This document shows, piece by piece, positions 13,805-63,210 of a stretch of 64,000 nucleotides of DNA. Position 1 is the first letter of the stretch. Each line of letters opens with the position of its first letter. A model generated the notes under the pieces. That model worked only from the letters and a program-made list of their open reading frames with translations, had not been told where the DNA came from and did no database searches. Made by a program: the position numbers and the translations under genes. This DNA is from Chamaelirium japonicum (lineage: Eukaryota > Streptophyta > Magnoliopsida > Liliales > Melanthiaceae). The stretch covers positions 124,001-188,000 of the forward strand of contig CANTAL010000004.1 of NCBI GenBank assembly GCA_947650365.1, written 5' to 3'.

Positions 13805-14377
13805 ACGAAAGAATTAGAATGGATTGTATGAATGAATTAGAATGGATCGTGCGAATGAATTAGAATGCGAATGAATTAGAATGGATCGTACGAATGAATT
13901 AGAATAGATTGTGCGAATGAATTAGAATGGATCTGGATCGTGTATCCATTCTAATTCATTCGTACGACCCATTCTAATTCATTCGTACGATCCATTCTAA
14001 TTTATTCGCATTCTAATTCATTCGCACGATCCATTCTAATTCATTCATACAATCCAATGAATTAGAATGGATCGTACGAATGAATTAGAATGGATCGTAC
14101 GAATGAATTAGAATAGATTGTGCGTACGAATGAATTAGAATGGATCGTACGAATGAATTAGAATGGATCGTGCTAATGAATTAGAATGGATCGTGCGAAT
14201 GAATTAGAATGGATCGTGCGAATGAATTAGAATGGATCGTACGAATGAATTAGAATGGATACATTCGTGCGAATGAATTAGAATGGATCGTGCGAATGAA
14301 TTAGAATGGATCGTACGAATGAATTAGAATAGATTGTGCTAATGAATTAGAATGGATCGTATGAATGAATTAGAATG
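13805..14377. repeat. Short alternating blocks (minus, plus, minus)
   Basis: Minus 13805-13928, the junction element 13929-13947, plus 13948-14056, minus 14057-14377. The first two are extra relative to copy one and account for part of the growth of the offset from about 5,516 to 6,180. Confidence 0.83.
13929..13947 (-). repeat. 19-bp junction element (reverse form) at a minus-to-plus switch
   Basis: Reads GGATCTGGATCGTGTATCC, flanked by TTAGAAT on the left and ATTCTAA on the right. First complete copy in the window. Confidence 0.85.
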
Positions 14378-14395
14378 GATACATTCGTGCGAATC

Positions 14396-15240
14396 CATTC
14401 TATTTCATTCGTACGATCCATTCTAATTCATTCGCACGATCCATTCTAATTCATTCATACGATCCATTCTAATTCCTTCGTACGATCCATTCTAATTCAT
14501 TCGTACGATCCATTCTAATTCCTTCGTATGATCCATTCTAATTCATTCGTACGGTATGATTCATTCTAATTCATTTGTACGATTCATTCTAATTCAATCC
14601 ATTCTAATTCATTCGTACGATCCATTCTAATTTCTTCGTATGATCTATTCTAATTCCTTCGTACGATCCATTCTATTTCATTCGTACGATCCATTCTAAT
14701 TCATTCGTACGATCCATTCTAATTCATTCGTACGATTCATTCTAATTCAATCCATTCTAAATCATTCCATTCTAATTCATTCGCACGATCTATTCGCATT
14801 CACTCAAACGATCCATTCTAATTCAGTCATACAATCCATTCTAATTCTTTTGCACGAATGTATCCATTCTAATTCATTCGTACGATCCATTCTAATTCAT
14901 TCGTATGATCTATTCTAATTCATTCGCATGATCCATTCTAATTCCTTCGTACGATCCATTTCAATTCATTCGCACGATCCATTCTAATTCATTCATACGA
15001 TCCATTCTAATTCATTCGTACGATCCATTCTAATTTCTTCGTATGATCTATTCTAATTCCTTCGTACGATCCATTCTAATTCATTCGCACGATCCATTCT
15101 AATTCATTCATATGATCCATTCTAATTCATTCGTACGATCCATTCTAAGTCCTTCGTATGATCCATTATAACTCATTCGCACGATCCATTCTAATTCATT
15201 CACACAATCTATTCTAATTCATTCGTATGATCCATTCTAA
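14396..15240 (+). repeat. Plus-oriented satellite block
   Basis: Partner of 8216-9068, entered through GGATACATTCGTGCGAATCC. It includes a small local variant, CCATTCTAAATCATTCCATTC near 14752. It ends in the 24-bp palindrome at 15229-15252. Confidence 0.84.
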
Positions 15241-17271
15241 TTAGAATGGATCGTATGAATGAATTAGAATGGATCGTGCGAATGAATTAGAATGGATCGT
15301 ACGAATGAAATAGAATGGATACATTCGTGCAAATGAATTAGAATGGATCATATGAATGAATTAGAATGGATCGTTTGAGTGAATGCGAATGGATCGTGCG
15401 AATGAATTAGAATGGATTGTACAAATGAATTAGAATGGATCGTACGAATGAATTAGAATGGATACATTGGTGCGAATGAATTAGAATGGATCATATGAAT
15501 GAATTAGATTGGATCGTATGAATGAATTAGAATGGATTGTATGAATTAGAATGGATACCTTAGTGCAAATGAAATAGAATGGATCGTACGAATGAATTAG
15601 AGTAGATTGTGAGAATGGATTAGAATGGATCATACGATTGAGTAAGAATGGATTGTATGAATGAAATAGAATAGATCGTATGAATGAATTAGAATGGATC
15701 GTACGAATGGATTAGAATGGATCGTTCGAATGAATTAGAATAGATTGTGCGAATGAATTAGAATGGATCGTACGAATGAATTAGAATGGATCGTACGAAT
15801 GAATTAGAATGGATCGTGCGAATGAATTAGAATGGATCGTACGAATGAATTAGAATGGATCGTATGAATGAATTAGAATGGATCGTACGAATGAATTAGA
15901 ATGGATACATTCGTGCGAATGAATTAGAATGGATCGTATGAATGAATTAGAATCGATCGTACGAATGAATTAGAATGGATCATGCGAATGAATTAGAATA
16001 GATCGTGCGAATGAATTAGAATGGATCGTACGAATGAAATAGAATGGATTGTACGAATGAGATAGAATGGATCGTACGAATGAATTAGTATGAATCGTAT
16101 GAATGAATTAGAATTTATCGTGCGAATGAATTAGAATGGATCGTACGAATGAATTAGAATGGATCGTACGAAGGAATTAGAATGGATCGTACGAAGGAAT
16201 TAGAATGGATCGTACAAATGAATTAGAATGGATCGTACGAAGGAATTAGAATGGATCGTACGAAGGAATTAGAATGGATACCTTCGTGCAAATGAATTAG
16301 GATGGATCGTACGAATGAGTAAGAATGGATCGTACGAATGAAATAGAATGGATCGTATGAATGAATTAGAATGGATCGTGCGAATGAATTAGAATGGATC
16401 GTACGAAAGAATTAGAATGGATACATTCGTGCGAATGAATTAGAATGGATCGTATGAATGAATTAGAATCGATCGTATGAATGAATTAGAATGGATCCTG
16501 CGAATGAATTAGAATGGATCGTGCGAATGAAGTAGAATAGATTGTGCGAATGGATTAGAATGGATCATACGATTGAGTAAGAAAGGATTGTACGACTGAA
16601 TTAGAATGAATTAGAATGGAGTCATTCGTGCGAATGAATTAGAATGGATCATACGGTTGAGTAAGAATGGATTGTACGAATGAAATAGAATAGATCGTAC
16701 GAATGAATTAGAATGGATCATGCTAATGAATTAGAATTGATCGTACGAATGAATTAGAATAGATTGTGCGAATTTATTAAAATGGATCGTATAAATGAAT
16801 TAGAATGGATCGTATGAATGAATTAGAATGGATGGTGCGAATGAATTAAAATGGATCGTATGAATGAAATAGAATGGATCGTACGAATGAAATAGAATGG
16901 ATCGTACGAATGAAATAGAATGGATCGTATGAATGAATTAGAATGGATCGTGCGAATGAATTAGAATGGATCGTACGAAGGAATTAGAATGGATCGTACG
17001 AAGGAATTAGAATGGATAGTACGAATGAATTAGAATGGATACCTTCGTGCAAATGAATTAGAATGGATCGTACGAATAAGTAAGAATGGATCGTACGAAT
17101 GAAATAGAATGGATCGTATGCATGAATTAGAATGGATCGTGCGAATGAATTAGAATGGATCGTACGAATGAATTAGAATGGATCGTACGAAGGAATTAGA
17201 ATGGATCGTATGAATGAATTAGAATGGATCGTGCGAATGAATTAGAATGGATCGTACGAATGAAATAGAAT
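15241..17271 (-). repeat. Long minus-oriented block (2.0 kb)
   Basis: The 5.5 kb duplication fades near 15505. From about 15.66 to 16.9 kb the block is shared with 23.7-24.9 kb at an offset of 8,020. It ends at GGATTCGCACGAATGTATCC (17272-17291). Confidence 0.85.
15660..16900 (-). repeat. 1.2-kb shared segment, copy 1
   Basis: It matches 23.7-24.9 kb at an offset of 8,020. Both have ATACCTTCGTGCAAATG (16279/24299), GAAGTAGAATAGATTGTGCG (16529/24549), and a short unit GAATGAATTAGAATGGA(G/T)TCATTCGTG. Confidence 0.85.
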
Positions 17272-17291
17272 GGATTCGCACGAATGTATCC

Positions 17292-17937
17292 ATTCTAATT
17301 CATACATACGATCCATTCTATTTCATTCGTACGATCCATTCTATTTCATTCGTATGATCCATTCTTACTCATTCGTACGATCCATTCTAATTCATTTGCA
17401 CGAAGGTATCCATTCTAATTCATTCGTACTATCCATTCTAATTCCTTCGTACGATCCATTCTAATAAATTAATACGATCCATTTTAATTCATTCGCACGA
17501 ATGTATCCATTCTAATTCATTCATACGATCCATTCTAATTCATTCATACGATCTATTCTAATTCTACGATCCATTCTTACTCATTCGTATTATCCATTTT
17601 AATTCATTCACACGAATGTATCAACTCTAATTCATTCGTACGATTCAATCTAATTCAATCCATTCTAATTCATTCGTACGATCCATTCTAATTCATTCGT
17701 ACGATCCATTCTAATTCATTCATACGATCCATTCTAATTCATTCGTACGATCCATTCTAATTCATTCGTACAATCCATTCTAATTCATTCGCACGATCTA
17801 TTCGCATTCACTCAATCGATCCATTCTAATTCATTCATATGATCCATTCATTCGTACGATCCATTCTTACTCATTCGTACGATCCATTCTTATTCATTTG
17901 CACGAAGGTATCCATTCTAATTCATTCGTACTATTCG
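17292..17937 (+). repeat. Plus-oriented satellite block
   Basis: It is unusually rich in CTATTTC and CTTACTC monomers at its left end, which removes the TAA stop and leaves a chance 64-codon frame at 17270-17464. It exits at CGTACTATTCGTGCGAATG. Confidence 0.84.
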
Positions 17938-18606
17938 TGCGAATGAATTAGAATAGATCATATGGTTGAGTAAGAATGGATTGTACGAATGAAATAGAAT
18001 AGATCGTACGAATGAATTAGAATGGATCATGCTAATGAATTAGAATTGATCGTACGAATGAATTAGAATAGATTGTGCGAATGAATTAAAATGGATACAT
18101 TCGTGCGAATGGATTAGAATGGATCGTATGAATGAATTAGAATGGATCGTATGAATTAGAATGGATCGTATGAATGAATTAGAATGAATCGTATGAATGA
18201 AATAGAATGGATCGTACGGATTAATTAGAATGGATCGTGCGAATGAATTAGAATGGATCGTGCGAATGAGTAAAATACATCGTACGAATGAAATAGAATG
18301 GATCGTATGAATGAATTATATTGGATCGTATTAATGAATTAGAATGGATCGTACGAATGAATTAGAATAGATCGTACGAATGAATTAGAATAGATACGAA
18401 TGGATCGTATGAATGAATTAAAATGGATAGTACGAATGTATTAGAATGGATCGTACAAATGAATTAGAATGGATTGAATTAGAATGAATCGTACGAATGA
18501 ATTAGAATGAATCATACCGTACGAATGAATTATAATGGATCATATGAATGAATTAGAATGGATCGTATGAATGAATTAGAATGGATCGTACGAATGAATT
18601 AGAATG
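17938..18606 (-). repeat. Minus-oriented satellite block
   Basis: The GAATGAATCATACCGTACG marker is near 18505, next to a core-less 15-bp monomer near 18472. It turns to plus at AGAATGTATCCATTC. Confidence 0.83.
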
Positions 18607-19367
18607 TATCCATTCTAATTCATTCGTACGATCCATTCTAATTCATTCGTATGATCTATTCTAATTCATTCGCATGATCCATTCTAATTTCTTCGTACGA
18701 TCCATTTTAATTCATTCGCACGATCCATTCTAATTCATTCATACGATCCATTCTAATTCATTCGTACAATCCATTCTAATTTCTTCGTATGATCTATTCT
18801 AATTCCTTCGTACGATCCATTCTAATTCATTCGCACGATCCATTCTAATTCATTCGTACGATCCATTCTATTTCATTCGTACGATCCATTCTAATTCATT
18901 CGTACGATCCATTCTAATTCATTCGCACAATCTATTCTAATTCATTCGTATGATCCATTCAAATTCATTCGCACGATCCATTCTAATTCATTCGCACAAT
19001 CTATTCTAATTCATTCGTACGTTCCATTCTAATTCATTCGCACGATCCATTCTAATTCATTCATACGATCCATTCTATTTCATTCGTACGATCCATTCTA
19101 ATTCATTCGTACGATCCATTCTAATTCATTTGTACGATCCATTCTAATTCATTCGCACAATCTATTCTAATTCATTCGTACGATCCATTCTAATTCATTC
19201 GCACGATCCATTGTAATTCATTCATACGATCCATTCTATTTCATTCGTACGATCCATTCTTACTCATTCGTACGATCCATTCTAATTCATTTGCACGAAG
19301 GTATCCATTCTAATTCATTCGTACTATCCATTCTAATTCCTTCGTACGATCCATTCTAATTACTTCG
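18607..19367 (+). repeat. Plus-oriented satellite block
   Basis: The order CGCACGATCC, CATACGATCC, CTATTTCATTCGTACG recurs near 18830-18880, 19030-19090 and 19200-19250, suggesting local amplification at a spacing of about 180 bp. It exits at TACTTCGTACGAATAAATTAG. Confidence 0.82.
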
Positions 19368-19993
19368 TACGAATAAATTAGAATGGATCGTACGAATGAA
19401 TTAGAATGGATACATTCGTGCAAAAGAATTAGAATGGATTGTATGAATGAATTAGAATGGATCGTGCGAATGAATTAGAATGGATCGTGCGAATGAATTA
19501 GAATAGATCATATGAATGAATTAGAATGGATCGTGCGAATGAATTAGAATGGATCGTACGAATGAATTAGAATGGATCGTACGAATGAATTAGAATGGAT
19601 CATATGAATGAGTAAGAATGGATCGTACGAATGAAATAGAATGGATCGTATGAATGAATTAGAATGGATACGTGCGAATGAATTAGAATTGATCGTACGA
19701 ATGAATTAGAATAGATTGTGCGAATGAATTAGAATGGATCGTACGAATGAATTGGAATGGATACATTCGTGCGAATGAAATAGAATGGATCGTATAAATG
19801 AATTAGAATGGATCGTGCGAATGAATTAGAATGGATCGTACGAATGAATTAGAATAGATTGTGCGAATGAATTAGAATGGATCGTACGAATGAATTAGAA
19901 TGGATCGTTCGAATGAATTAGAATGGATCGTATGAATGAATTAGAATGGATCGTGCGAATGAATTAGAATGGATCGTATGAATGAAATAGAAT
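19368..19993 (-). repeat. Minus-oriented satellite block
   Basis: It ends with GGATTCGCACGAATGTATCC at 19994-20013. It contains a TACATTCGTGCAAAAG monomer near 19410, a rare string repeated at 20545, 33963 and 58241. Confidence 0.83.
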
Positions 19994-20013
19994 GGATTCG
20001 CACGAATGTATCC

Positions 20014-20540
20014 ATTCTAATTCATTCGTACGATCCATTCTAATTCATTCGTACAATCCATTCTAATTCATTCGCACGATCCATTCGCATTCACTCAAAT
20101 GATCCATTCTAATTCATTCATATGATCCATTCTAATTCATTCGCACGAATGTATCCATTCTAATTCATTCGTACGATCCATTCTAATTCATTCGTACGAT
20201 CCATTCTTACTCATTCGTACGATCCATTCAAATTCATTCGTTCGATCCATTCTAATTCATTCGTACGATCCATTCTAATTCATTCGCACGATCCATTCTA
20301 ATTCATGCATACGATCCAATCTAATTCATTCATACGATCCATTCTAATTCATTCGCACGAATGTATCCATTCTAATTCATTCACACGATCCATTCTAATT
20401 CATTCATACAATCCATTCTAATTCATTCGTATTATCCATTTTAATTCATTCACACGAATGTATCAACTCTAATTCATTCGTACGATTCATTCTAATTCAA
20501 TCCATTCTAATTCATTCGTACGATCCATTCTAATTCATTC
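20014..20540 (+). repeat. Plus-oriented satellite block
   Basis: Its first roughly 230 bp match the start of the block at 22284 closely, including CGTACAATCC, CGCACGATCC and CGCATTCACTCAAA in the same order. It turns at CATTCTAATGGATAC. Confidence 0.84.
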
Positions 20541-22263
20541 TAATGGATACATTCGTGCAAAAGAATTAGAATGGATTTTATGAATGAATTAGAATGGATC
20601 GTGCGAATGAATTAGAATGGATACATTCGTACGAATGAATTAGAATGGATCGTATGAATGAATTAGATTGGATCGTATGAATGAATTAGAATGGATCATA
20701 CGAATGAATTAGAATGGATACCTTCGTGCAAATGAATTAGAATGGATCGTACGAATGAGTAAGAATGGATCGTACGAATGAAATAGAATGAATCGTATGA
20801 ATGAATTAGAATGGATCGTACGAATGAATTAGAATGGATTGTACAAATGAATTAGAATGGATCGTACGAATGAAATAGAATGGATCGTACGAATGAAATA
20901 GAATGGATCGTACGAATGAATTAGAATAGATTGTGCGAATGGATTAGAATGGATCATACGATTGAGTAAGAATGGATTGTACGAATGAAATAGAATAGAT
21001 CGTACGAATGAATTAGAATGGATCGTATGAATGAATTAGAATGGATCGTACGAATGAATTAGAATGGATCGTACGAAGGAATTAGAATGGATCGTACGAA
21101 TGAATTAGAATGGATCGTACAAATGAATTAGAATGGATACGAATGGATCGTATGAATGAATTAGAATGGATCGTACGAATGAAATAGAATGGATCGTACG
21201 AAGGAATTAGAATGGATCATATGAATGAATTAGAATGGATTGTATGGATGAATTAGAATGGATCGTGCGAATAAATTAGAATGGATCGAATGAATGAATT
21301 AGAATGGATCGTACGAATGAATTAGAATGGATCGTGCGAATGAATTAGAATGGATCGTACGAAGGAATTAGAATGGATAGTACGAATGAATTAGAATGGA
21401 TACCTTCGTTCAAATGAATTAGAATTGATCGTACGAATGTATCCATTCTAATTAGGATGGATCATACGAATGAATTAGAATGAATCATACCGTACGAATG
21501 AATTAGAATGGATCATACGAAGGAATTAGAATGGATCGTACGAATGAATTAGAATGGATCGTACGAATGAATGTGAAAGGATACATTCGTGTGAATGAAT
21601 TAGAATGGATCGTATGAGTGTGAATGAATTAGAATGGATCGTGCGAATGAATTAGAATGGATCGTATTAATGAATTATAATGGATCGTGCGAATGAATTA
21701 GAATGGATCGTACGAATGAGTAAGAATGGATCGTGCGAATGAATTAGAATGGATTGTACTAATGAATTAGAATGGATCGTACGAATGAATTAGAATGGAT
21801 ACATTCGTGCGAATCCATTCGATTTCATTCGTATGATCCATTCTAATTCATTCGCACGATCCATTCTAATTCATTCGTATGAATGAATTAGAATGGATCG
21901 TGCGAATGAATTAGAATGGATCATACGAATGAATTAGAATGGATCGTATGAATGAATTAGAATGGATCGTGCGAATAAATTAAAATGGATCGTATGAATG
22001 AATTAGAATGGATCGTGCGAATGAAGTAGAATGGATCGTACGAATGAATTAGAATGGATCGTATGAATGAATTAGAATGGATCGTGCGAATGAATTAGAA
22101 TGGATCGTACGAATGAATTAGAATAGATTGTGCGAATGAATTAGAATCGATCGTACGAATGAATTAGAATGGATCGTACGAATGAATTAGAATGGATCGT
22201 ATGAATGAATTAGAATGGATCGTGCGAATTAATTAGAATGGATCGTACGAATGAAATAGAATG
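20541..22263 (-). repeat. Minus-oriented block with two small plus inserts
   Basis: Less than one plus unit sits at about 21438-21451 (CCATTCTAATTAG). A 60-bp plus insert at 21817-21879 is bounded by GGATACATTCGTGCGAATCC and CATTCGTATGAATG. GATCGTATGAGTGTGAATG near 21608 is a rare monomer shared with 49.7 and 53.2-53.7 kb. Confidence 0.82.
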
Positions 22264-22283
22264 GATTCGCACGAATGTATCCA

Positions 22284-23629
22284 TTCTAATTCATTCGTAC
22301 GATCCATTCTAATTCATTCGTACAATCCATTCTAATTCATTCGCACGATCCATTCGCATTCACTCAAACGATCCATTCTAATTCATTCATATGATCCATT
22401 CTAATTCATTCGCATGAATGTATCCATTCTAATTCATTCGTACGATCCATTCTAATTCATTCGTACGATCCATTCTTACTCATTCGTACGATCCATTCTA
22501 ATTCATTCGTTCGATCCATTCTAATTCATTCGTACGATCCATTCTAATTCATTCGCACGATCCATTCTAATTCATTAGCACGAAACATTCTAATTCATTC
22601 GTACGATCCATTCTAATTCATTTATACGATCCAATCTAATTCATTCATACGATCTATTCTAATTCTTTCGCACGAATGTATCCATTCTAATTCATTCGCA
22701 CAATATATTCTAATTCATTCGTACGATCAATTCTAATTCATTAGCATGATCCATTCTAATTCATTTGTATGATCTATTCTATTTCATTCGTACAATCCAT
22801 TCTTACTCAATCGTATGATCCATTCTAATCCATTCGCACAATCTATTCTAATTCATTCGTACGATCCATTCTATTTCATTCGTACGATCCATTCTAATTC
22901 ATACGATCCATTCTATTTCATTCATACGATCCATTTTAATTCAATCGCACGATCCATTCTAATTCATTCATACGATCCATTCTAATTCATTCGTACGATC
23001 CATTCTAATTTCTTCGTATGATCTATTCTAATTCCTTCGTACGATCCATTCTTACTCAATCGTATGATCCATTCTAATCCATTCGCACAATCTATTCTAA
23101 TTCATTCATACGATCCATTCTAATTTATTCGCACGATCTATTCTAATTCCTTCGTATGATCCATTCTTATTCATTCGTACGATCCATTCTAATTCATTCG
23201 TATGATCCATTCTAATTCATTCGCACAATCTATTCTAATTCATTCGTACGATACATTCTAATTCATTCGTACGATCCGTTCTAATTCATTCGCACGATCC
23301 ATTCTAAATCATTCATACGATCCATTCTATTTCATTCGTACGATCCATTCTTACTCATTCGTACGATCCATTCTAATTCATTTGCACGAAGGTATCCATT
23401 CTAATTCCTTCGTACGATCCATTCTAATTCCTTCGTACAATCCATTCTAATTCATTCGTACGATCCATTCTAATTCATTCGTAAGATCCATACTAATTCA
23501 TTCTAATTCCTTCGTACGATCCATTCTAATTCCTTCGTACAATCCATTCTAATTCCTTCGTACAATCCATTCTAATTCATTCGTACGATCCATTCTAATT
23601 CATTCGTACGATCCATTCTTATTCAATCG
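22284..23629 (+). repeat. Plus-oriented satellite block
   Basis: Entered by GGATTCGCACGAATGTATCC (22264-22283). The string CTTACTCAATCGTATGATCC followed by CATTCGCACAATCTATTC occurs twice, near 22802 and 23051. It ends by turning within CAATCGTACGAATGAATTAG. Confidence 0.84.
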
Positions 23630-25216
23630 TACGAATGAATTAGAATGGATCATACGATTGAATAAGAATGGATTGTACGAATGAATTAGAATGGATCATA
23701 CGATTGAATAAGAATGGATTGTACGAATGAAATAGAATAGATCGTACGAATGAATTAGAATGGATCGTACGAATGAATTAGAATGGATCGTTCGAATGAA
23801 TTAGAATAGATTGTGCGAATGAATTAGAATGGATCGTACGAATGAATTAGAATGGATCGTACGAATGAATTAGAATGGATCGTACGAATGAATTAGAATG
23901 GATCGTGCGAATGAATTAGAATGGATCGTACGAATGAATTAGAATGGATCGTATGAATGAATTAGAATGGATCGTACGAATGAATTAGAATGGATACATT
24001 CGTGCGAATGAATTAGAATGGATCGTATGAATGAATTAGAATCGATCGTACGAATGAATTAGAATGGATCATGTGAATGAATTAGAATGGATCGTGCGAA
24101 TGAGATAGAATGGATCGTACGAATGAGATAGAATGGATCGTACGAATGAATTAGAATGGATCGTACGAATGAATTAGAATGGATCGTACGAATGAATTAG
24201 AATGGGTCATACGAAGGAATTAGAATGGATCGTACGAAGGAATTAGAATGGATCGTACGAAGGAATTAGAATGGATAGTACGAATGAATTAGAATGGATA
24301 CCTTCGTGCAAATGAATTAAGATGGATCGTACGAATGAGTAAGAATGGATCGTACGAATGAAATAGAATGGATCATATGAATGAATTAGAATGGATCGTG
24401 CGAATGAATTAGAATGGATTGTACGAATGAATTAGAATGGAAACATTCGTGCGAATGAATTAGAATGGATCGTATGAATGAATTAGAATCGATCGTACGA
24501 ATGAATTAGAATGGATCCTGCGAATGAATTAGAATGGATCGTGCGAATGAAGTAGAATAGATTGTGCGAATGGATTAGAATGGATCATACGATTGAGTAA
24601 GAAAGGATTGTACGATTGAATTAGAATGAATTAGAATGGATTCATTCGTGCGAATGAATTAGAATGGATCATACGGTTGAGTAAGAATGGATTGTACGAA
24701 TGAAATAGAATAGATCGTACGAATGAATTAGAATGGATCATGCAAATGATTTCGAATTGATCGTACGAATGAATTAGAATAGATTGTGCGAATGAATTAA
24801 AATGGATCGTATAAATGAATTAGAATGGATCGTATGAATGAATTAGAATGGATCGTGCGAATGAATTAAAATGGATCGTATGAATGAAATAGAATGGATC
24901 GTATGAATTAGAATGGATCGTACGAATGAAATAGAATGGATTGTACGAATGAATTAGAATAGATTGTGCGAATGGATTAGAATGGATCATACGATTGAGT
25001 AAGAAAGGATTGTACGAATGAAATAGAATAGATCGTACGAATGAATTAGAATGGATCGTATGAATGAATTAGAATGGATCGTTCGAATGAATTAGAATAG
25101 ATTGTGCGAATGAATTAGAATGGATCGTACGAATGAATTAGAATGGATCGTGCGAATAAATTAGAATGGATCGTATGAATGAATTAGAATGGATCATGCG
25201 AATGAATTAGAATATG
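23630..25216 (-). repeat. Minus-oriented satellite block
   Basis: The segment from about 23.72 to 24.9 kb is the second copy of 15.7-16.9 kb. The rare GAAGTAGAATAGATTGTGCG is at 24549, matching 16529. It ends in ATGGATCCAT at 25214-25223. Confidence 0.84.
23680..24920 (-). repeat. 1.2-kb shared segment, copy 2
   Basis: Same orientation as the first copy, with unrelated arrangements between them. That makes it either a dispersed duplicate or one end of an 8-kb repeat whose remainder has been rearranged. Confidence 0.83.
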
Positions 25217-27240: not shown

Positions 27241-27259
27241 GGATCTGGATCGTGTATCC
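27241..27259 (-). repeat. 19-bp junction element (reverse form)
   Basis: GGATCTGGATCGTGTATCC, minus units left and plus units right. It is followed by an approximately 300-bp module that recurs after the elements at 42344, 47000 and 63192. Confidence 0.85.
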
Positions 27260-29382: not shown

Positions 29383-29402
29383 GGATTCGCACGAATGTAT
29401 CC

Positions 29403-46999: not shown

Positions 47000-47018
47000 G
47001 GATCTGGATCGTGTATCC
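47000..47018 (-). repeat. 19-bp junction element (reverse form)
   Basis: GGATCTGGATCGTGTATCC, exactly 4,656 bp after the copy at 42344. Confidence 0.86.
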
Positions 47019-49652: not shown

Positions 49653-49671
49653 GGATACACGATCCAGATCC
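49653..49671 (+). repeat. 19-bp junction element, right edge of the 4.6-kb repeat pair
   Basis: GGATACACGATCCAGATCC. After it the sequence turns at once through CATTCGTGCGAATG and no longer follows the repeat. Confidence 0.87.
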
Positions 49672-49686
49672 ATTCTAATTCATTCG

Positions 49687-51847: not shown

Positions 51848-51866
51848 GGATACACGATCCAGATCC
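51848..51866 (+). repeat. 19-bp junction element
   Basis: GGATACACGATCCAGATCC, first of two in the 518-bp unit. Confidence 0.86.
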
Positions 51867-51992
51867 ATTCTAATTCATTCGTACGATCCATTCTAATTCA
51901 TTCGTACGATCCATTCTAATTCATTCGCGCGATCCATTCTAATTCATTCGCACGATCCAGTCTAATTCATTCGCATGAATTAGAATTAGAAT

Positions 51993-52011
51993 GGATACAC
52001 GATCCAGATCC
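51993..52011 (+). repeat. 19-bp junction element
   Basis: GGATACACGATCCAGATCC, 145 bp after the previous element, preceded by only about 18 bp of minus repeat (GAATTAGAATTAGAAT). Confidence 0.86.
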
Positions 52012-52365
52012 ATTCTAATTCATTCGCACAATCTATTCTAATTCATTCATAGGATCGTGCGAATGAATTAGAATGGATCGTGCGAATGAATTAGAATGGA
52101 TCGTACGAATGAAATAGAATGGATTGTGTGAATGAATTAGAATGGATCGTGCGAATGAATTAGAATGGATCGTATTAATGAATTAGAATGGATCGTGCGA
52201 ATGAATTAGAATGGATCGTACGAATGAGTAAGAATGGATCGTACGAATGAATTAGAATGGATTGAATTAGAATGAATCGTACGAATGAATTAGACTGGAT
52301 CGTGCGAATGAATTAGAATGGATCGTACGAATGAATTAGAATGGATCGTATGAATGAATTAGAAT

Positions 52366-52384
52366 GGATACACGATCCAGATCC
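52366..52384 (+). repeat. 19-bp junction element
   Basis: GGATACACGATCCAGATCC, 518 bp after 51848. Confidence 0.86.
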
Positions 52385-52510
52385 ATTCTAATTCATTCGT
52401 ACGATCCATTCTAATTCATTCGTACGATTCATTCTAATTCATTCGCACGATCCATTCTAATTCATTCGCACGATCCAGTCTAATTCATTCGCATGAATTA
52501 GAATTAGAAT

Positions 52511-52529
52511 GGATACACGATCCATATCC
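52511..52529 (+). repeat. 19-bp junction element, variant
   Basis: Reads GGATACACGATCCATATCC (one G-to-T change against the family). Confidence 0.82.
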
Positions 52530-52630
52530 ATTCTAATTCATTCGCACAATCTATTCTAATTCATTCGTAGGATCGTGCGAATGAATTAGAATGGATCGTG
52601 CGAATGAGTTAGAATGGATCGTACGAATGA

Positions 52631-53734
52631 ATTAGAATGGATCGTGCGAATGAATTAGAATGGATCGTGCGAATGAGTTAGAATGGATCGTACGAATGAA
52701 TTAGAATGGATCGTACGAATGAATTAGAAAGGATACATTCGAATTCATTCGTACGATCCATTCTAATTCCTTCGTACGATCCATATTCTAATTCATTCGC
52801 ACGATCCATTCTAATTCATTCGTACGATCTATTCTAATTCATTCGTACGATCCATTCTAATTCATTCGTACGATCTATTCTAATTCATTCGTACGATCTA
52901 TTCTAATTCATTCGTACGATCTATTCTAATTCATTAGTACGATCCATTCTAATTAGAATAGATTGTATGAATTAGAATGGATCGTATGAATGAATTAGAA
53001 TAGATCGTACGAATGAATTAGAATGGATTGAATTAGAATGAATCGTACGAATGAATTAGAATGGATCGTGCGAATGAATTAGAATATGGATCGTACGAAG
53101 GAATTAGAATGATACACTCATACGAATAGATTGTGCGAAAGAATTAGAATGGATCGTACGAATAAATTAGAACGGATACATTCGTGCGAATGAATTAGAA
53201 TGGATCGTATGAGTGTGAATGAATTAGAATGGATTGTGCGAATGAATTAGAATGGATCGTACGAATGAATTAGAATGGATCGTACGAATGAATTAGAATG
53301 GATACATTCGTGCAAAAGAAGTAGAATGGATTGTATGAATGAATTAGAATGGATCGTGCGAATGAATTAGAATGGATCGTACGAATGAGTAAGAATGGAT
53401 AGTACGAATGAATTAGAATGGATCGTACGAATGAATTAGAATGGATACATTCGTGCGAATGAATTAGAATGGATCATATGAATGAATTAGAATGGATCGT
53501 TTGAGTGAATGCGAATGGATCGTGCGAATGAATTAGAATGGATCGTACGAATGACTTAGAATGGATCGTTCGAATGAATTAGAATAGATTGTGCGAATGA
53601 ATTAGAATGGATCGTACGAATGAATTAGAACGGATACATTCGTGCGAATGAATTAGAATGGATCGTATGAGTGTGAATGAATTAGAATGGATTGTGCGAA
53701 TAAATTAGAATGGATCGTACGAATGAATTAGAAT
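52631..53734. repeat. Satellite region with a 458-bp repeated segment
   Basis: A plus block 52741-52952 starts at GGATACATTCGAATTC and ends in the palindrome ATTCTAATTAGAAT (52946-52959); the rest is minus. CGGATACATTCGTGCG plus GTATGAGTGTGAATG occurs at 53173 and again at 53631, and TGCAAAAGAAGTAG at 53310 and 53770. The offset is about 458-460. Confidence 0.83.
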
Positions 53735-56170
53735 AGATCGTACGAATGAATTAGAATGGATACATTCGTGCAAAAGAAGTAGAATGGATTGTATGAATGA
53801 ATTAGAATGGATCGTGCGAATGAATTAGAATGGATCGTGCGAATGAATTAGAATGGATACATTCATGCGAATGAATTAGAATGGATCATACGAATGAATT
53901 AGAATGGATTCATTCGTGCGAATGAATTAGAATGGATCGTACGAATGAATTAGAATGGATCGTACGAATGAATTAGAATGGATCGTATGAACGAATTAGA
54001 ATGGATCGTGCGAATGAATTAGAATGGATCGTATTAATGAATTTGAATGGATCGTACGAATGAATTAGAATGGAACGTACGAATGAATTAGAATGGATCG
54101 TAGAATGGATCGTATGAATGAATTAGATTGGATCGTACGAATGAGTAAGAATGGATCATACGAATGAATTAGAATGGATCGTAAGAATGAATCAGAATGG
54201 ATACATTTCGTACGATCCATTCTAACTCATTCGTACGATCTATTCTAATTCATTCATGCAATCCAGTCTAATTCATTCGTACGAAGGAATTAGAAAGGAT
54301 CGTATGAATGAATTAGAATGGATCGTACGAATGAAATAGAATGGATCCACTCTTACTCATTCGTACGATTCATTCTAATTCAATCCATTCTAATTCATTC
54401 GCATGATCCATTCTAATTCATTCGTACAATCGATTCTAATTCATTCATACGATCCACTCTTCTAATTCATTCGTACGATTCATTCTAATTCATTAGTACG
54501 ATCCATTCGATCCAGATCCATTCTAATTCATTCGTACGACCCATTCTAATTCATTCGTACGATCCATTCTAATTAATTCATGCGATCCATTCTATTTCAT
54601 TCGTACGATCCATTCTTACTCATTCGTACGATCCATTCTAATTCATTTGCACGATCCATTCTAATTCATTCATATGATCCATTCTAATTCATTCGCACGA
54701 ATGTATCCATTCTAATTCATTCGTACGATCCATTCTAATTCATTTGTACGAATGTATCCACTCTAATTCATTCGTACGATCCATTCTAATTCATTTGTAC
54801 GAATGTATCCTTCCTAATTCATTCGTACGATCCATTCTAATTCATTCGTACGATCCATTCTAATTCATTCGTACGATCCATTCTAACTCATTCGCACGAT
54901 CCATTCTAATTCATTCGCACGATCCTACGAATGAATTAGAAAAGATTGTGCGAATGAATTAGAGTGGATCTGGATCGTGTATCCATTCTAATTCAGTCGT
55001 ACGACCCATTCTAATTCATTCGTACGATCCATTCTAATTCATTCGCACGATCCATTCTAATTCATTCGCACGATCCATTCTAATTCATTCATACGATCCA
55101 TTCTAATTCATTCATATGATCCACTCTAATTCATTCATACGATCCATTCTAATTCATTCGTACGATCCATTCTAATTTATTCGCACGATCCATTCTAATT
55201 CATTCGTACGATCTATTCTATTTCATTCGTACAATCCATTCTTACTCAATCGTATGATCCATTCTAATCCATTCGCACAATCTACTCTAATTCATTCGTA
55301 CGATCTATTCTAATTCATTCGTACAATCCATTCTAATTCATTCGCACAATTCATTCTAATTCATTCATACGATCCGTTCTAATTTATTCGCACGATCTAT
55401 TCTAATTCATTCATACGATCCATTCTAATTCATTCATATGATCCATTCTAATTCATTCGCACGATCCATTCTTACTCATTCGTACGATCCATTCTAATTC
55501 ATTTGCACGAAGGTATCCATTCTAATTCATTCGTACTATCCATTCTAATTCCTTCGTACGATCCATTCTAATTCCTTCATACGATCCATTCTAATTCATT
55601 CGAACGATCCTTTCTAATTCATTCGTATGATCCATTCTAATTCCTTCGTATGATCCATTCTAATTCATTCGTACGGTATGATTCATTCTAATTCATTCGT
55701 ACGATTCATTCTAATTCAATCCATTCTAATTCATTCGTACGATCCATTCTAATTCATTCGTACGATCCATTCTAATTCATTCATACGATCCATTCTAATT
55801 CATTCATACGATCCATTCTAATTCTTTTGCACGAATGTATCCATTCTAATTCATTCATACGATCCATTCTAATTCATTCGTATGATCCGAATTAGAATGG
55901 ATCATACGAAGGAATTAGAATGGATCGTGCGAATAAATTAGAATGGATCGTATGAATGAATTAGAATAGATTGTGCGAATGGATTAGAATGGATCATACG
56001 ATTGAGTAGGAATGGATTGTACGAATAAAATAGAATAGATCGTACGAATGAATTAGAATGGATCGTGCGAATAAATTAGAATGGATCGTATGAATGAATT
56101 AGAATGGATCGTGCGAATGAATTAGAATATAGATCGTACGAATGAATTAGAATAGATCGTATGAATGAAC
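53735..56170. repeat. Higher-order unit X, copy 1 (about 2.45 kb)
   Basis: Landmarks: TGCAAAAGAAGTAG at 53770, GGATACATTCATGCG at 53855, the reverse 19-bp element at 54966, and CGTACGGTATGATTC near 55672. All recur 4,476 bp later. It is made of minus to 54208, then short alternating blocks, then plus 54347-54928 and 54985-55891, then minus. Confidence 0.88.
54966..54984 (-). repeat. 19-bp junction element (reverse form) inside unit X
   Basis: GGATCTGGATCGTGTATCC, entered from a minus block of only about 37 bp (54929-54965). Confidence 0.86.
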
Positions 56171-57187
56171 AAGAATGGATCGTGCGAATGAATTAGAATG
56201 GATCGTACGAATGAAATAGAATTGATCGTACGAATGGATCGTACGAATGAATTAGAATGGATCGTACGAATGAATTAGAATGGATACATTCGTGCGAATC
56301 CATTCTATTTTATTCGTACGATCCATTCTAATTCATTCGCATGATCCATTCTAATTCATTCGTACGATCCATTCTAATTCATTCGTACGATCCATTCTAA
56401 TTCATTCGTACGATTCATTCTAATTCAATCCATTCTAATTCATTTGTACGATCCATTCTTACTCATTCGTACGATCCATTCTAATTCATTCGCACGAATG
56501 AATCCATTCTAATTCATTCGTATGATCCTATCTAATTCATTCGTACGATCCATTCTAATTCATTCGCACGATCCATTCTATTTCATTCGTACGATCCATT
56601 CTAATTCATTCGCACGAATGTATCCATTCCAATTCATTCGTATGATCCATTCTAATTCATTCGGACAATCGATTCTAATTCATCCGTACGATCAATTCTA
56701 ATTCATTCGCACGTATCCATTCTAATTCATTCATACGATCCATTCTATTTCATTCGTACGATCCATTCTTACTCATTCGTACGATCAATTCTAATTCATT
56801 CGTACGATCGATTCTAATTCATTCGTACGATCCATTCTAATTCATTCGCACAATCTATACGTTCCATTCTAATTCATTCGTAAGATCCATTCTAATTCAT
56901 TCGCACGATCCATTCTAATTCATTAATACGATCCAATCTAATTCATTCGTACGATCCATTCTAATCCATTCGTATTCATTCGCACAATCTATTCTAATTC
57001 ATTCATACGGTCCATCCTAATTCATTCGCACGAATGTATCCATTCTAATTCATTCGTACAATCCATTCTATTTCATTCGTACGAATGAATTAGAATGGAT
57101 ACCTTCTTGCAAATGAATTAGGATGGATCGTACGAATGAGTAAGAATGGATCGTACGAATGAAATAGAATGGATCGTATGAATGAAT
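56171..57187. repeat. Higher-order unit Y, copy 1 (1,017 bp)
   Basis: It contains a short minus arm, the junction GGATACATTCGTGCGAATCC at 56282, a plus arm of about 780 bp to 57082, and a minus arm. Private strings are CATTCGGACAATCGATTC, CATCCGTACGATCAATTC and ATACCTTCTTGCAAATG. Its plus arm also matches 25.55-26.04 kb. Confidence 0.9.
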
Positions 57188-58204
57188 TAGAATGGATCGT
57201 GCGAATGAATTAGAATGGATCGTACGAATGAAATAGAATTGATCGTACGAATGGATCGTACGAATGAATTAGAATGGATCGTACGAATGAATTAGAATGG
57301 ATACATTCGTGCGAATCCATTCTATTTTATTCGTACGATCCATTCTAATTCATTCGCATGATCCATTCTAATTCATTCGTACGATCCATTCTAATTCATT
57401 CGTACGATCCATTCTAATTCATTCGTACGATTCATTCTAATTCAATCCATTCTAATTCATTTGTACGATCCATTCTTACTCATTCGTACGATCCATTCTA
57501 ATTCATTCGCACGAATGAATCCATTCTAATTCATTCGTATGATCCTATCTAATTCATTCGTACGATCCATTCTAATTCATTCGCACGATCCATTCTATTT
57601 CATTCGTACGATCCATTCTAATTCATTCGCACGAATGTATCCATTCCAATTCATTCGTATGATCCATTCTAATTCATTCGGACAATCGATTCTAATTCAT
57701 CCGTACGATCAATTCTAATTCATTCGCACGTATCCATTCTAATTCATTCATACGATCCATTCTATTTCATTCGTACGATCCATTCTTACTCATTCGTACG
57801 ATCAATTCTAATTCATTCGTACGATCGATTCTAATTCATTCGTACGATCCATTCTAATTCATTCGCACAATCTATACGTTCCATTCTAATTCATTCGTAA
57901 GATCCATTCTAATTCATTCGCACGATCCATTCTAATTCATTAATACGATCCAATCTAATTCATTCGTACGATCCATTCTAATCCATTCGTATTCATTCGC
58001 ACAATCTATTCTAATTCATTCATACGGTCCATCCTAATTCATTCGCACGAATGTATCCATTCTAATTCATTCGTACAATCCATTCTATTTCATTCGTACG
58101 AATGAATTAGAATGGATACCTTCTTGCAAATGAATTAGGATGGATCGTACGAATGAGTAAGAATGGATCGTACGAATGAAATAGAATGGATCGTATGAAT
58201 GAAT
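57188..58204. repeat. Higher-order unit Y, copy 2 (1,017 bp)
   Basis: Direct tandem copy of 56171-57187 (anchor TGGATACATTCGTGCG 56281 to 57298). I saw almost no differences by eye in the plus arm, including all the private strings, so this duplication is recent. Confidence 0.91.
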
Positions 58205-60646
58205 TAGAATGGATCGTACGAATGAATTAGAATGGATACATTCGTGCAAAAGAAGTAGAATGGATTGTATGAATGAATTAGAATGGATCGTGCGAATGAA
58301 TTAGAATGGATCGTGCGAATGAATTAGAATGGATACATTCATGCGAATGAATTAGAATGGATCATACGAATGAATTAGAATGGATTCATTCGTGCGAATG
58401 AATTAGAATGGATCGTACGAATGAATTAGAATGGATCGTACGAATGAATTAGAATGGATCGTATGAACGAATTAGAATGGATCGTGCGAATGAATTAGAA
58501 TGGATCGTATTAATGAATTTGAATGGATCGTACGAATGAATTAGAATGGAACGTACGAATGAATTAGAATGGATCGTAGAATGGATCGTATGAATGAATT
58601 AGATTGGATCGTACGAATGAGTAAGAATGGATCATACGAATGAATTAGAATGGATCGTACGAATGAATCAGAATGGATACATTTCGTACGATCCATTCTA
58701 ACTCATTCGTACGATCTATTCTAATTCATTCATGCAATCCAGTCTAATTCATTCGTACGAAGGAATTAGAAAGGATCGTATGAATGAATTAGAATGGATC
58801 GTACGAATGAAATAGAATGGATCCACTCTTACTCATTCGTACGATTCATTCTAATTCAATCCATTCTAATTCATTCGCATGATCCATTCTAATTCATTCG
58901 TACAATCGATTCTAATTCATTCATACGATCCACTCTTCTAATTCATTCGTACGATTCATTCTAATTCATTAGTACGATCCATTCGATCCAGATCCATTCT
59001 AATTCATTCGTACGACCCATTCTAATTCATTCGTACGATCCATTCTAATTAATTCATGCGATCCATTCTATTTCATTCGTACGATCCATTCTTACTCATT
59101 CGTACGATCCATTCTAATTCATTTGCACGATCCATTCTAATTCATTCATATGATCCATTCTAATTCATTCGCACGAATGTATCCATTCTAATTCATTTGT
59201 ACGATCCATTCTAATTCATTTGTACGAATGTATCCACTCTAATTCATTCGTACGATCCATTCTAATTCATTTGTACGAATGTATCCTTCCTAATTCATTC
59301 GTACGATCCATTCTAATTCATTCGTACGATCCATTCTAATTCATTCGTACGATCCATTCTAACTCATTCGCACGATCCATTCTAATTCATTCGCACGATC
59401 CTACGAATGAATTAGAAAAGATTGTGCGAATGAATTAGAATGGATCTGGATCGTGTATCCATTCTAATTCAGTCGTACGACCCATTCTAATTCATTCGTA
59501 CGATCCATTCTAATTCATTCGCACGATCCATTCTTATTCATTCGCACGATCCATTCTAATTCATTCATACGATCCATTCTAATTCATTCATATGATCCAC
59601 TCTAATTCATTCATACGATCCATTCTAATTCATTCGTACGATCCATTCTAATTTATTCGCACGATCCATTCTAATTCATTCGTACGATCTATTCTATTTC
59701 ATTCGTACAATCCATTCTTACTCAATCGTATGATCCATTCTAATCCATTCGCACAATCTACTCTAATTCATTCGTACGATCTATTCTAATTCATTCGTAC
59801 AATCCATTCTAATTCATTCGCACAATCTATTCTAATTCATTCATACGATCCGTTCTAATTTATTCGCACGATCTATTCTAATTCATTCATACGATCCATT
59901 CTAATTCATTCATATGATCCATTCTAATTCATTCGCACGATCCATTCTTACTCATTCGTACGATCCATTCTAATTCATTTGCACGAAGGTATCCATTCTA
60001 ATTCATTCGTACTATCCATTCTAATTCCTTCGTACGATCCATTCTAATTCCTTCATACGATCCATTCTAATTCATTCGAACGATCCTTTCTAATTCATTC
60101 GTATGATCCATTCTAATTCCTTCGTATGATCCATTCTAATTCATTCGTACGGTATGATTCATTCTAATTCATTCGTACGATTCATTCTAATTCAATCCAT
60201 TCTAATTCATTCGTACGATCCATTCTAATTCATTCGTACGATCCATTCTAATTCATTCATACGATCCATTCTAATTCATTCATACGATCCATTCTAATTC
60301 TTTTGCACGAATGTATCCATTCTAATTCATTCATACGATCCATTCTAATTCATTCGTATGATCCGAATTAGAATGGATCATACGAAGGAATTAGAATGGA
60401 TCGTGCGAATAAATTAGAATGGATCGTATGAATGAATTAGAATAGATTGTGCGAATGGATTAGAATGGATCATACGATTGAGTAGGAATGGATTGTACGA
60501 ATGAAATAGAATAGATCGTACGAATGAATTAGAATGGATCGTGCGAATAAATTAGAATGGATCGTATGAATGAATTAGAATGGATCGTGCGAATGAATTA
60601 GAATATAGATCGTACGAATGAATTAGAATAGATCGTATGAATAAAC
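58205..60646. repeat. Higher-order unit X, copy 2
   Basis: It matches 53735-56170 at a constant 4,476 bp offset with scattered substitutions (for example CGTACGAATGAATCAG here against CGTAAGAATGAATCAG at 54181, and CTTATTC against CTAATTC near 59530). No indel is seen. Confidence 0.89.
59442..59460 (-). repeat. 19-bp junction element (reverse form) inside the second X
   Basis: GGATCTGGATCGTGTATCC, 4,476 bp after 54966. Confidence 0.86.
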
Positions 60647-61690
60647 AAGAATGGATCGTGCGAATGAATTAGAATGGATCGTACGAATGAAATAGAATTG
60701 ATCGTACGAATGGATCGTACGAATGAATTAGAATGGATCGTACGAATGAATTAGAATGGATACATTCGTGCGAATCCATTCTATTTTATTCGTACGATCC
60801 ATTCTAATTCATTCGCATGATCCATTCTAATTCATTCGTACGATCCATTCTAATTTATTCGTACGATCCATTCTAATTCATTCGTACGATTCATTCTAAT
60901 TCAATCCATTCTAATTCATTTGTACGATCCATTCTTACTCATTCGTACGATCCATTCTAATTCATTCGCACGAATGAATCCATTCTAATTCATTCGTATG
61001 ATCCTATCTAATTCATTCGTACGATCCATTCTAATTCATTCGCACGATCCATTCTATTTCATTCGTACGATCCATTCTAATTCATTCGCACGAATGTATC
61101 CATTCCAATTCATTCGTATGATCCATTCTAATTCATTCGGACAATCGATTCTAATTCATCCGTACGATCAATTCTAATTCATTCGCACGTATCCATTCTA
61201 ATTCATTCATACGATCCATTCTATTTCATTCGTACGATCCATTCTTACTCATTCGTACGATCAATTCTAATTCATTCGTACGATCGATTCTAATTCATTC
61301 GTACGATCCATTCTAATTCATTCGCACAATCTATACGTTCCATTCTAATTCATTCGTAAGATCCATTCTAATTCATTCGCACGATCCATTCTAATTCATT
61401 AATACGATCCAATCTAATTCATTCGTACGATCCATTCTAATCCATTCGTATTCATTCGCACAATCTATTCTAATTCATTCATACGGTCCATCCTAATTCA
61501 TTCGCACGAATGTATCCATTCTAATTCATTCGTACAATCCATTCTATTTCATTCGTACGAATGAATTAGAATGGATACCTTCTTGCAAATGAATTAGGAT
61601 GGATCGTACGAATGAGTAAGAATGGATCGTACGAATGAAATAGAATGGATCGTATGAATGAATTAGAATGGATCGTACGAATGAATTAGA
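60647..61690. repeat. Higher-order unit Y, copy 3
   Basis: Anchor TGGATACATTCGTGCG at 60757, with the same private strings as the other two Y copies. There is no fourth Y: after about 61690 the sequence changes to ordinary minus units. Confidence 0.89.
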
Positions 61691-61922
61691 ATGGATTGTA
61701 CGAATGAATTAGAATGGATCGTATGAATGAAATAGAATGGATCGTACGAATGAAATAGAATGGATCGTACGAATGAATTAGAATAGATTGTGCGAATGGA
61801 TTAGAATGGATCGTATGAATGAATTAGAGTGGATCATATGAATGAATTAGAATGGATTGTATGAATGAATTAGAATGGATCGTGCGAATGAATTAGAATG
61901 GATCGTACGAATGAATTAGAAT

Positions 61923-61941
61923 GGATACAGGATCCAGATTT
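61923..61941 (+). repeat. 19-bp junction element, variant
   Basis: Reads GGATACAGGATCCAGATTT; three bases differ from the family form. Confidence 0.75.
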
Positions 61942-62364
61942 ATTCTAATTCATTCGCACAATCTATTCTAATTCATTCGTAGGATCGTGCGAATGAATTA
62001 GAATGGATCGTGCAAATGAGTTAGAATGGATCGTACGAATGAATTAGAATGGATCGTACGAATGAATTAGAAAGGATACATTCGTACAAATGAATTAGAA
62101 TGGATCGTACGAATGAATTAGAGTGGATACATTCGTACAAATGAATTAGAATGGATCGTACGAATGAATTAGAATGGATACATTCATGCGAATGAATTAG
62201 AATGGATCATATGAATGAATTAGAATGGATCGTGCGAATGAATTAGAATGGATCGTACGAATGAGTAAGAATGGATCGTACGAATGAAATAGAATGGATC
62301 GTATGAATGAATTAGAATGGATCGTACGAATGAATTAGAATGGGTCGTACGAATGAATTAGAAT

Positions 62365-62383
62365 GGATACACGATCCAGATCC
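62365..62383 (+). repeat. 19-bp junction element
   Basis: GGATACACGATCCAGATCC followed by a 42-bp plus arm. Confidence 0.86.
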
Positions 62384-63191
62384 ATTCTAATTCATTCGCA
62401 CAATCTATTCTAATTCATTCGTAGGATCGTGCGAATGAATTAGAATGGATCGTGCGAATGCGTTAGAATGGATCGTACAAATGAATTAGAATGGATCGTA
62501 CGAATGAATTAGAATGGATCGTACAAATGAATTAGAAAGGATACATCCGAATTCATTCGTACGATCCATTCTAATTCCTTCTTACGATCCATAGTCTAAT
62601 TCATTCGCACGATCCATTCTAATTCATTCGTACGATTCATTCTAATTCAATCCATTCTAATTCATTCGTATGATCTATTCTAATTCATTCATACGATCCA
62701 TTCTAATTCATACAATCTATTCTAATTAGAATGGATCGTACTAATGAATTAGACTGGATCGTACGAATGAATTAGAATGGATCGTACGAATGAATTAGAA
62801 TGGATTGAATTAGAATGAATCGTACGAATGAATTAGAATGGATCGTGCGAAGGAATTAGAATGGATCGTACGAATGAATTAGAATGGATCGTACGAATGA
62901 ATTAGAATAGATCGTACGAATGAATTAGAATGGATCATGCTAATGAATTAGAATTGATCATACAAATGAATTAGAATAGATTGTCCGAATGAATTAGAAT
63001 GGATCGTACGAATGAATTGGAATGGATACATTCGTGCGAATGAATTAGAATAGATCGTATGAATGAATTAGAGTGGACACATTCGTACAAATGGATTAGA
63101 ATGGATCGTACGAATGAATTAGAATGGATACATTCGTGCGAATGAATTAGAATGGATCGTATGAGAATAGATTGTGCGAATGAATTAGAAT

Positions 63192-63210
63192 GGATCTGGA
63201 TCGTGTATCC
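63192..63210 (-). repeat. 19-bp junction element (reverse form)
   Basis: GGATCTGGATCGTGTATCC, followed by the same approximately 300-bp module as at 27241, 42344 and 47000. Confidence 0.86.

Follow-up and report, generated by a model that had tools for sequence, protein, structure and literature searches.

A junction repeated at strand switches of a 23-bp satellite array is probably the scar of a single rearrangement

Why should the same 19 bp recur at so many of the points where a short tandem repeat changes strand? The question is raised by a 64-kb stretch of DNA, positions 124001-188000 of contig C16 and hereafter the window, which is a satellite array of 23-bp monomers lying in both orientations. 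Where GAATGAATTAGAATGGATCGTAC is on the top strand the monomer is here called a G-unit, and where its reverse complement is there, a C-unit; G-to-C changes are head-to-head switches and C-to-G changes tail-to-tail switches. An earlier note, in which G-units were 'minus' and C-units 'plus', had drawn attention to a 19-mer at minus-to-plus switches, here termed J1 (GGATACACGATCCAGATCC), and had proposed that it was either a single old inversion junction spread by duplication and inversion or a preferred break site. The observation is confirmed and the interpretation partly supported: J1 is very probably the inherited scar of a single rearrangement, which joined a G-unit array head-to-head to a C-unit array and was then passively multiplied within a centromeric Chio satellite.

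A two-orientation alignment model matches 92.9% of the bases in the window to the 23-mer, read forward or as its reverse complement, and places 111 switches, of which 55 are G-to-C and 56 C-to-G; the segments have a median length of 507 bp. A k-mer method gave 116 segments, with 57 G-to-C and 58 C-to-G switches, and G-units covering 31.8 kb. A 28-bp variant is also present, the consensus of which (GAATGGATACATTCGTGCGAATGAATTA, from 111 units) differs from that of the 23-mer (GAATGGATCGTACGAATGAATTA) by ACATT and one A/G change. The insertion may have been made by an error in copying a hairpin, CATT being the reverse complement of AATG; mutation at quasi-palindromes is the background to this proposal. 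The 9-bp sequence TTCGTACGA occurs 997 times, counting both strands. In Chio1 and Chio2, the CENH3 satellites of the holocentric plant Chionographis japonica, the units are 23 and 28 bp long, with 5 bp and one substitution between them (Kuo et al. 2023, PMC10264360). The window repeat fits them in its 23-bp monomer, its 28-bp variant with a 5-bp indel and one substitution, its TTCGTACGA motif and its mixed forward and reverse arrays, a match to the published description rather than to the letters. Exact two-unit patterns, one for each collection, had no match among prokaryote and viral contigs, nor had 1 kb of array in a plasmid collection, the window's own genome possibly being excluded from these; five sequence strings had no match in literature text.

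All 19 positions given for J1 in the earlier note hold it, on the strands stated: 16 exactly, those at 42344 and 52511 with one mismatch, and that at 61923 with three. No further copy with up to three mismatches exists in the window, where 0.03 matches would be expected by chance (100 dinucleotide shuffles). J1 is composed of a G-arm GAATGGAT, a spacer ACACGATCCAG and a C-arm ATCCATTC, and every copy lies at a junction of GAATTAGAATGGAT units with their reverse complement, that is, at a G-to-C switch. As a description of the copies, the statement that J1 marks minus-to-plus switches is therefore correct; as a description of the switches it overreaches, J1 being found at 19 of the 55 G-to-C switches in the alignment model and the other 36 having no 19-mer. 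It is likewise true of each copy that minus units lie to the left and plus units to the right whichever strand J1 is on; however, because a head-to-head junction remains head-to-head when reverse-complemented, this apparent action 'in both directions' is geometry, not biology, and does not count as independent evidence.

A search of the whole assembly (1,518,659,071 bases in 3,253 contigs) found 4,516 exact copies of J1, in about equal numbers on the two strands (2,299 and 2,217; p = 0.23), and no match to the reversed 19-mer used as a control. Copies lying inside uniformly oriented arrays, which the earlier note had named as grounds for giving up its reading, were not seen: none of the 19 copies in the window is away from a switch, nor is any of 39 outside it, which amount to less than 1% of the genomic copies, 34 of them coming from loci on contig C2 picked for holding J1 (one region of one contig) and five from unpicked C16 tiles. 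The distribution is uneven, with 16 exact copies in the window and none in three 10-kb C2 tiles. Centromeric DNA makes up about 17% of the Chionographis japonica genome (PMC10264360), and on this figure the genomic copies amount to approximately one J1 per 57 kb of array; hence J1 is locally enriched in the window.

Whether the copies share a history was assessed from their flanks by pairwise matrices and distance-decay profiles, rather than by the tree of 200-bp flanks that the earlier note had suggested, since the two arms do not share one history. The profiles comprise 46 J1 copies, excluding those whose 260-bp flanks would run past a sequence end, those with duplicate flanks and those with mismatched cores. 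Two variants served as markers of the arms, GGGTCG and CGCACAATCT. The first is rare, occurring 15 times in the window, yet 12 of these occurrences are within 40 bp to the left of a J1 copy (12 of the 19 copies), and it is also found at 29 of the 39 copies outside. Left-flank identity among J1 copies in the window exceeds that between J1 and background sites (0.89 against 0.80 at 23-46 bp; 0.84 against 0.72 at 46-69 bp), the excess having gone by 115 bp; the comparison of window with C2 copies behaves alike, and among the C2 copies themselves the excess persists to approximately 200 bp. On the right, window copies are at 0.90 against 0.82 in the first 23 bp and show a slight excess at 69-115 bp, whilst C2 copies are above background throughout.

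Two pairs of block duplicates, 98.8% and 95.7% identical, carry J1 copies within the window, and J1 with the same flanks recurs on C2, a second, chromosome-scale contig. The arms can also part company. Over 200 bp, where unrelated sites average 81% (s.d. 4%), the copies at 40387 and 45043 are 98% identical in the right arm and 77% in the left, and those at 27241 and 40387 are 98% identical in the left arm and 79% in the right. The two arms thus appear to have been reshuffled independently, presumably by recombination. A site-specific recombinase acting on J1 was considered as well, but the arms of J1 vary freely and the window is satellite throughout. Amongst the 12 copies with GGGTCG, changes were found at one of 228 core sites, two of 276 in the adjacent left flank and 13 of 324 in the 27 bp to the right; the core is kept no better than the left flank inherited with it, as hitchhiking predicts. 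Through its rare flank variants, its duplicated blocks and its near-equal use of both strands, the 19-mer gives good support to the proposal of one old junction spread by duplication and inversion, and the copies examined do not have flanks lacking a shared history. On these sequence comparisons, descent of the J1 copies from a single event is well supported.

The original event would have been an error-prone joining or template switch near the left part of the 28-bp Chio2 unit (GGATACATTCG). Two shorter relatives of J1, at 6899 and 12415 and absent from the earlier list, lack one of its two tandem GATCCA copies; this form, J1-prime (GGATACACGATCCATTC, with a single change in one of the two), may have given rise to the J1 spacer through a 6-bp tandem duplication of GATCCA. 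Blocks of about 0.5 to 4 kb bearing J1 would then have been duplicated and pasted elsewhere in either orientation, with arms probably being swapped through recombination between similar repeats. The conclusion drawn is that a few junctions were made by rare error-prone joins and subsequently copied by ordinary satellite turnover.

Several points weigh against single descent. The right flanks of the window copies show no excess over background at 23-69 bp. Seven of the 19 copies lack GGGTCG, and three of these (49653, 51848 and 52366) lack both flank markers, so that the case for their descent depends on the core together with an exchange of arms presumed to have followed. Because the background sites are themselves satellite and closely similar to one another, the comparison has limited power. 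J1-prime could be an independent event at the half-site GGATACA, with which J1 begins.

Seven J1 copies are followed, after about 40-60 bp, by a C-to-G junction of one shared type (around GTAGGATCGTGCG), at 30264-30340, 51993-52070, 52511-52590, 54900-54984, 59380-59460, 61923-62000 and 62365-62440. J1 and this neighbouring junction seem to form a two-junction cassette that has been copied as a single piece.

Four further junction families, J2 (GGATACATTCGTGCGAATCC), J3 (GGATACATTCGAATTC), J4 (GGATACATTTCGTACGATCC) and J5 (GGATACATTCTAATTC), start with GGATACA as J1 does, and all five diverge to the right of it. GGATACA, which the 28-bp unit also has as its left part, lies near 49 of the 55 G-to-C switches in the window but only one of the 56 C-to-G switches (Fisher p = 1.5e-23, related copies not being independent), although only 7% of GGAT sites continue as GGATACA. 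Elsewhere it is present at 33 of 44 G-to-C and four of 41 C-to-G switches in five C16 tiles, and at 11 of 21 and one of 22, respectively, in three C2 tiles; these and the other counts from tiles and loci omit switches within 40 bp of a locus end and loci with a unit match below 85% (17 of 48). In two of the eight 10-kb tiles no G-to-C switch has it. One of them, L034 (C16:850,001-860,000; 0 of 6), is a diverged array with an 87% unit match and variants such as GGCTACATTC, in which the exact 28-bp unit, J1 and J2 are all absent; in the other, L051 (C2:2,800,001-2,810,000; 0 of 5), 11 exact 28-bp Chio2 units are present and four of the five head-to-head switches belong to a CGTACG phase class.

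The 19-mer itself can be explained without the second proposal of the earlier note, a preferred break site, but that proposal survives one level up, because the different junctions J1 to J5 all start at the same half-site. Strand flips would recur, through breakage or template switching, at the left part of the 28-bp Chio2 unit, where CATTCGTGCGAATG is nearly its own reverse complement and hence resembles both orientations, and J1 to J5 would be separate events at this one hinge. Such a site concerns the origin of the whole junction family and is compatible with single descent within J1, so the odds on the two do not have to sum to one. It is favoured by the excess of GGATACA at G-to-C over C-to-G switches in the window and in the C16 and C2 tiles, by the divergence of the families to its right, and by the C-to-G junction types, the 31 clusters of which lie at phase classes allowing a mean consensus microhomology of 3.45, against 2.04 under uniform choice (p = 5e-5), a figure for what the phase allows in the consensus and not for the overlap actually used. 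However, the ten G-to-C clusters show no such excess (2.1 against 2.04, p = 0.45), the two tiles without a GGATACA switch include one with exact Chio2 units, and identical details and common flanks within J1 and within J2 make each family look like one event. Each of J1 to J5 can moreover be derived, through a small insertion or deletion, from one ancestral junction, the hypothetical GGATA-CATTCGTRCGATCC, which was found neither in the window nor in 31 array loci; the junction forms named as uninterrupted are GGATACATTCGTRCGATCC and GAATGGATCGTACGATCCATTC. Recurrent breakage at a hinge is therefore possible as the origin of the family, though somewhat unlikely. That the 28-bp Chio2 variant acts specifically as a strand-neutral hinge, its 14-bp near-palindrome CATTCGTGCGAATG giving opposite arrays a shared patch at which to rejoin at breaks or stalled copying, is more doubtful; if true, it would account for GGATACA being where most head-to-head switches of this region begin, and could explain why Chio arrays continue to flip when those of the sister genus do not.

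J2 cores continue with CCATTCTATTTC in 20 of 26 cases, compared to 144 such sites and 1,582 CCATTCTAATTC sites across the window (p = 1e-17). In 42 J2 copies with G-units on the left, left flanks are around 0.05 above background in the first two bins and right flanks are alike further out; this profile leaves out six of 48 copies with C-units on the left, the inclusion of which hides the left-flank excess. J2 too looks like the product of one event, as judged from its sequence. Unlike J1, J2 can lie away from any called switch, flanked left and right by C-units, as it does at seven of its 26 copies in the window; hence a junction can outlive its switch.

The two kinds of switch differ in diversity within the window, where G-to-C switches fall into four phase classes and C-to-G switches into 14, or into 12 and 34 junction clusters, respectively (similarity of 0.8 in 40 bp). 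The C16 tiles have eight and 13 classes, with effective numbers of 2.43 and 7.54. In the three C2 tiles the asymmetry is absent, the effective numbers being 4.45 (21 G-to-C switches) and 4.32 (22 C-to-G switches). A rule that head-to-head junctions have few origins and tail-to-tail junctions many was accordingly rejected, and the asymmetry is treated as regional history rather than as a property of the satellite as a whole: both the GGATACA pattern and the few-versus-many pattern are regional lineages. Hairpin fragility at tail-to-tail junctions was also dropped as a cause, since loop sizes overlap widely and the predicted tail-to-tail hairpins are slightly less stable.

On a 60-nt strand, all 55 G-to-C junctions are predicted to fold as one hairpin, with a mean of -16.1 kcal/mol, against -3.6 kcal/mol for uniform array. 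This might suggest that the junction is a selected functional element, for instance a hairpin or cruciform aiding centromeric chromatin, and a function has been suggested for similar conserved inversion sites in beetles (PMC13081366). Any inverted-repeat switch would fold in this way, however, and C-to-G junctions are predicted to do so almost as well (-14.0 kcal/mol; p = 0.01). With a J1 core no better conserved than its co-inherited left flank, with J1 so unevenly distributed and with J2 copies lying away from any called switch, selection for function is very unlikely.

Fold-back, or inverted duplication, is a known route to head-to-head junctions and would have made the arms of each switch mirror copies at the outset. 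Arms of the same switch do not resemble each other more than arms taken from different switches do: among G-to-C switches the values are 0.854 and 0.861, respectively (39 of 55 with long enough arms, two above the 95th percentile), and among C-to-G switches 0.843 and 0.837 (41 of 56, three above), switches with arms under 90 bp being dropped (16 and 15, respectively). This speaks both against recent fold-backs and against fold-back errors in the reads. Age and exchange of arms could have wiped out a mirror signal; even so, an origin of each switch by fold-back is improbable. Long satellite arrays are difficult to assemble, but that the switches are an artefact of assembly or of folded-back reads is extremely unlikely, given arms that are not self-copies, the recurrence of the same junction and flanks on a chromosome-scale contig, and the fact that a published assembly resembling this genome was built from HiFi reads (PMC10264360).

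The features of the window are given in Table 1. In addition, segment 980-2911 matches segment 52967-54925, 50 kb away, at 89% in inverted orientation, exceeding the values of around 81-86% for the majority of other long matches listed. The left edge of the centromere unit lies at about 6571 in locus L029 (C16, about 26,570), with 119-bp and 43-bp tandem repeats just beyond it.

Table 1. Positions of the array, J1 and related junctions, and duplicated blocks in the window. GGGTCG, rare left-flank variant; percentages, identity to the position named.
Feature	Position	Strand	Details
23/28-bp satellite array (Chio1/Chio2-like), about half per orientation, 111 strand switches	1..64000	.	unit match and segment model
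J1	13929..13947	-	exact; GGGTCG
J1	27241..27259	-	exact; GGGTCG
J1	30264..30282	+	exact; GGGTCG
J1	30633..30651	-	exact; GGGTCG
J1	36004..36022	+	exact; GGGTCG
J1	40387..40405	+	exact; GGGTCG
J1, one mismatch	42344..42362	-	GGGTCG
J1, different left arm	45043..45061	+	exact; left arm 77%, right arm 98% to 40387
J1	47000..47018	-	exact; GGGTCG
J1, without both diagnostic flank variants	49653..49671	+	exact
J1, without both diagnostic flank variants	51848..51866	+	exact
J1, short 22-bp G arm	51993..52011	+	exact
J1, 518-bp repeat of 51848, without both diagnostic flank variants	52366..52384	+	exact; left and right arms 98% to 51848
J1, one mismatch, 518-bp repeat of 51993	52511..52529	+	left 99%, right 96% to 51993
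J1	54966..54984	-	exact; GGGTCG
J1, block duplicate of 54966	59442..59460	-	exact; arms 100% to 54966 after rounding
J1, three mismatches	61923..61941	+	right arm 96% to 30264
J1	62365..62383	+	exact; GGGTCG
J1	63192..63210	-	exact; arms 98% and 97% to 40387; GGGTCG
J1-prime, without 6-bp GATCCA tandem duplication	6899..6915	-	
J1-prime, one change (CAATCC)	12415..12431	-	
J2	607..626	-	
J2	5573..5592	+	
J2	8197..8216	+	
J2	11232..11251	+	
J2	14377..14396	+	
J2	17272..17291	-	
J2	19994..20013	-	
J2	21797..21816	+	
J2	22263..22282	-	
J2	29383..29402	-	
J2 core between C-units (own orientation), no called switch	29964..29983	-	
J2 core between C-units, no called switch	30909..30928	+	
J2	31571..31590	+	
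J2	35042..35061	-	
J2 core between C-units, no called switch	35727..35746	-	
J2	36715..36734	-	
J2, one change	39093..39112	-	
J2	43544..43563	+	
J2 core between C-units, no called switch	44010..44029	+	
J2 core between C-units, no called switch	44413..44432	-	
J2, one change	48247..48266	+	
J2 core between C-units, no called switch	48690..48709	+	
J2 core between C-units, no called switch	49024..49043	-	
J2	56282..56301	+	
J2	57299..57318	+	
J2	60758..60777	+	
J3	4122..4137	+	
J3	9638..9653	+	
J3	41409..41424	-	
J3	46042..46057	-	
J3	52731..52746	+	
J3, one change	62539..62554	+	
J4	1671..1690	-	
J4	54199..54218	+	
J4	58675..58694	+	
J5	18596..18611	-	
Duplicated block, first copy (holds J1 54966)	53612..57298	+	98.8% to 58094-61784
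Duplicated block, second copy (holds J1 59442)	58094..61784	+	98.8% to 53612-57298
Duplicated block, first copy (holds J1 42344)	41208..43009	+	95.7% to 45864-47665
Duplicated block, second copy (holds J1 47000)	45864..47665	+	95.7% to 41208-43009

The closest known counterpart of the array itself is Chio1/Chio2, in which forward arrays are mixed with reverse ones and the unit contains dyad symmetries (PMC10264360); the window likewise has 23- and 28-bp units, mixed orientations and dyad symmetries, in a genome near 1.52 Gb, the Chionographis japonica primary assembly comprising 1,526,137,861 bp in 3,786 contigs, with 100 centromere units. In the parts of the Chio literature covered, mixed orientations are described, whilst switch junctions, their families and their descent are not (PMC10264360, PMC12722358). 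Among the eight papers listed out of 3,968 loose matches, PMC10264360 alone gives the names of both Chio1 and Chio2; Chio1 is mentioned once in PMC12295485. How DNA is exchanged between centromere units was left open by the authors, who named gene conversion, inversions or circular DNA (PMC10264360). Strand-switch junctions are natural lineage tags in satellite DNA, where repeats are too alike to be traced singly, and J1, with its thousands of exact copies, could reveal exchange between centromere units of different chromosomes.

The Chama satellite of Chamaelirium luteum, from the sister genus, also holds TTCGTACGA, but differs in having a 60-bp unit and a consistent orientation over hundreds of kilobases (PMC12722358). 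The CUS-TR24 heterochromatin of Cuscuta europaea, another holocentric plant, resembles the window in being satellite with segmental duplications and inversions; its arrays, however, are broken by simple repeats and LINEs, and the part of that account drawn on names no recurrent inversion junction (PMC8091179). The nearest parallel found for J1 appears to be the conserved inversion sites in the satellites of the beetle Tribolium madens, present in thousands of copies that are approximately 98-99% similar (PMC13081366). In both cases a (peri)centromeric satellite flips at a recurrent, near-identical junction distinct from the normal unit. The beetle sequence is unrelated and from another kingdom, with subunits of about 110 bp mostly arranged as two subarrays of several kilobases, whereas the unit here is of 23 bp and changes orientation about every 580 bp, at several families of junction, with no pair of multi-kilobase mirror subarrays. 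By this analogy, J1 may be regarded as the counterpart, in a plant, of the inversion sites conserved in beetle satellites.

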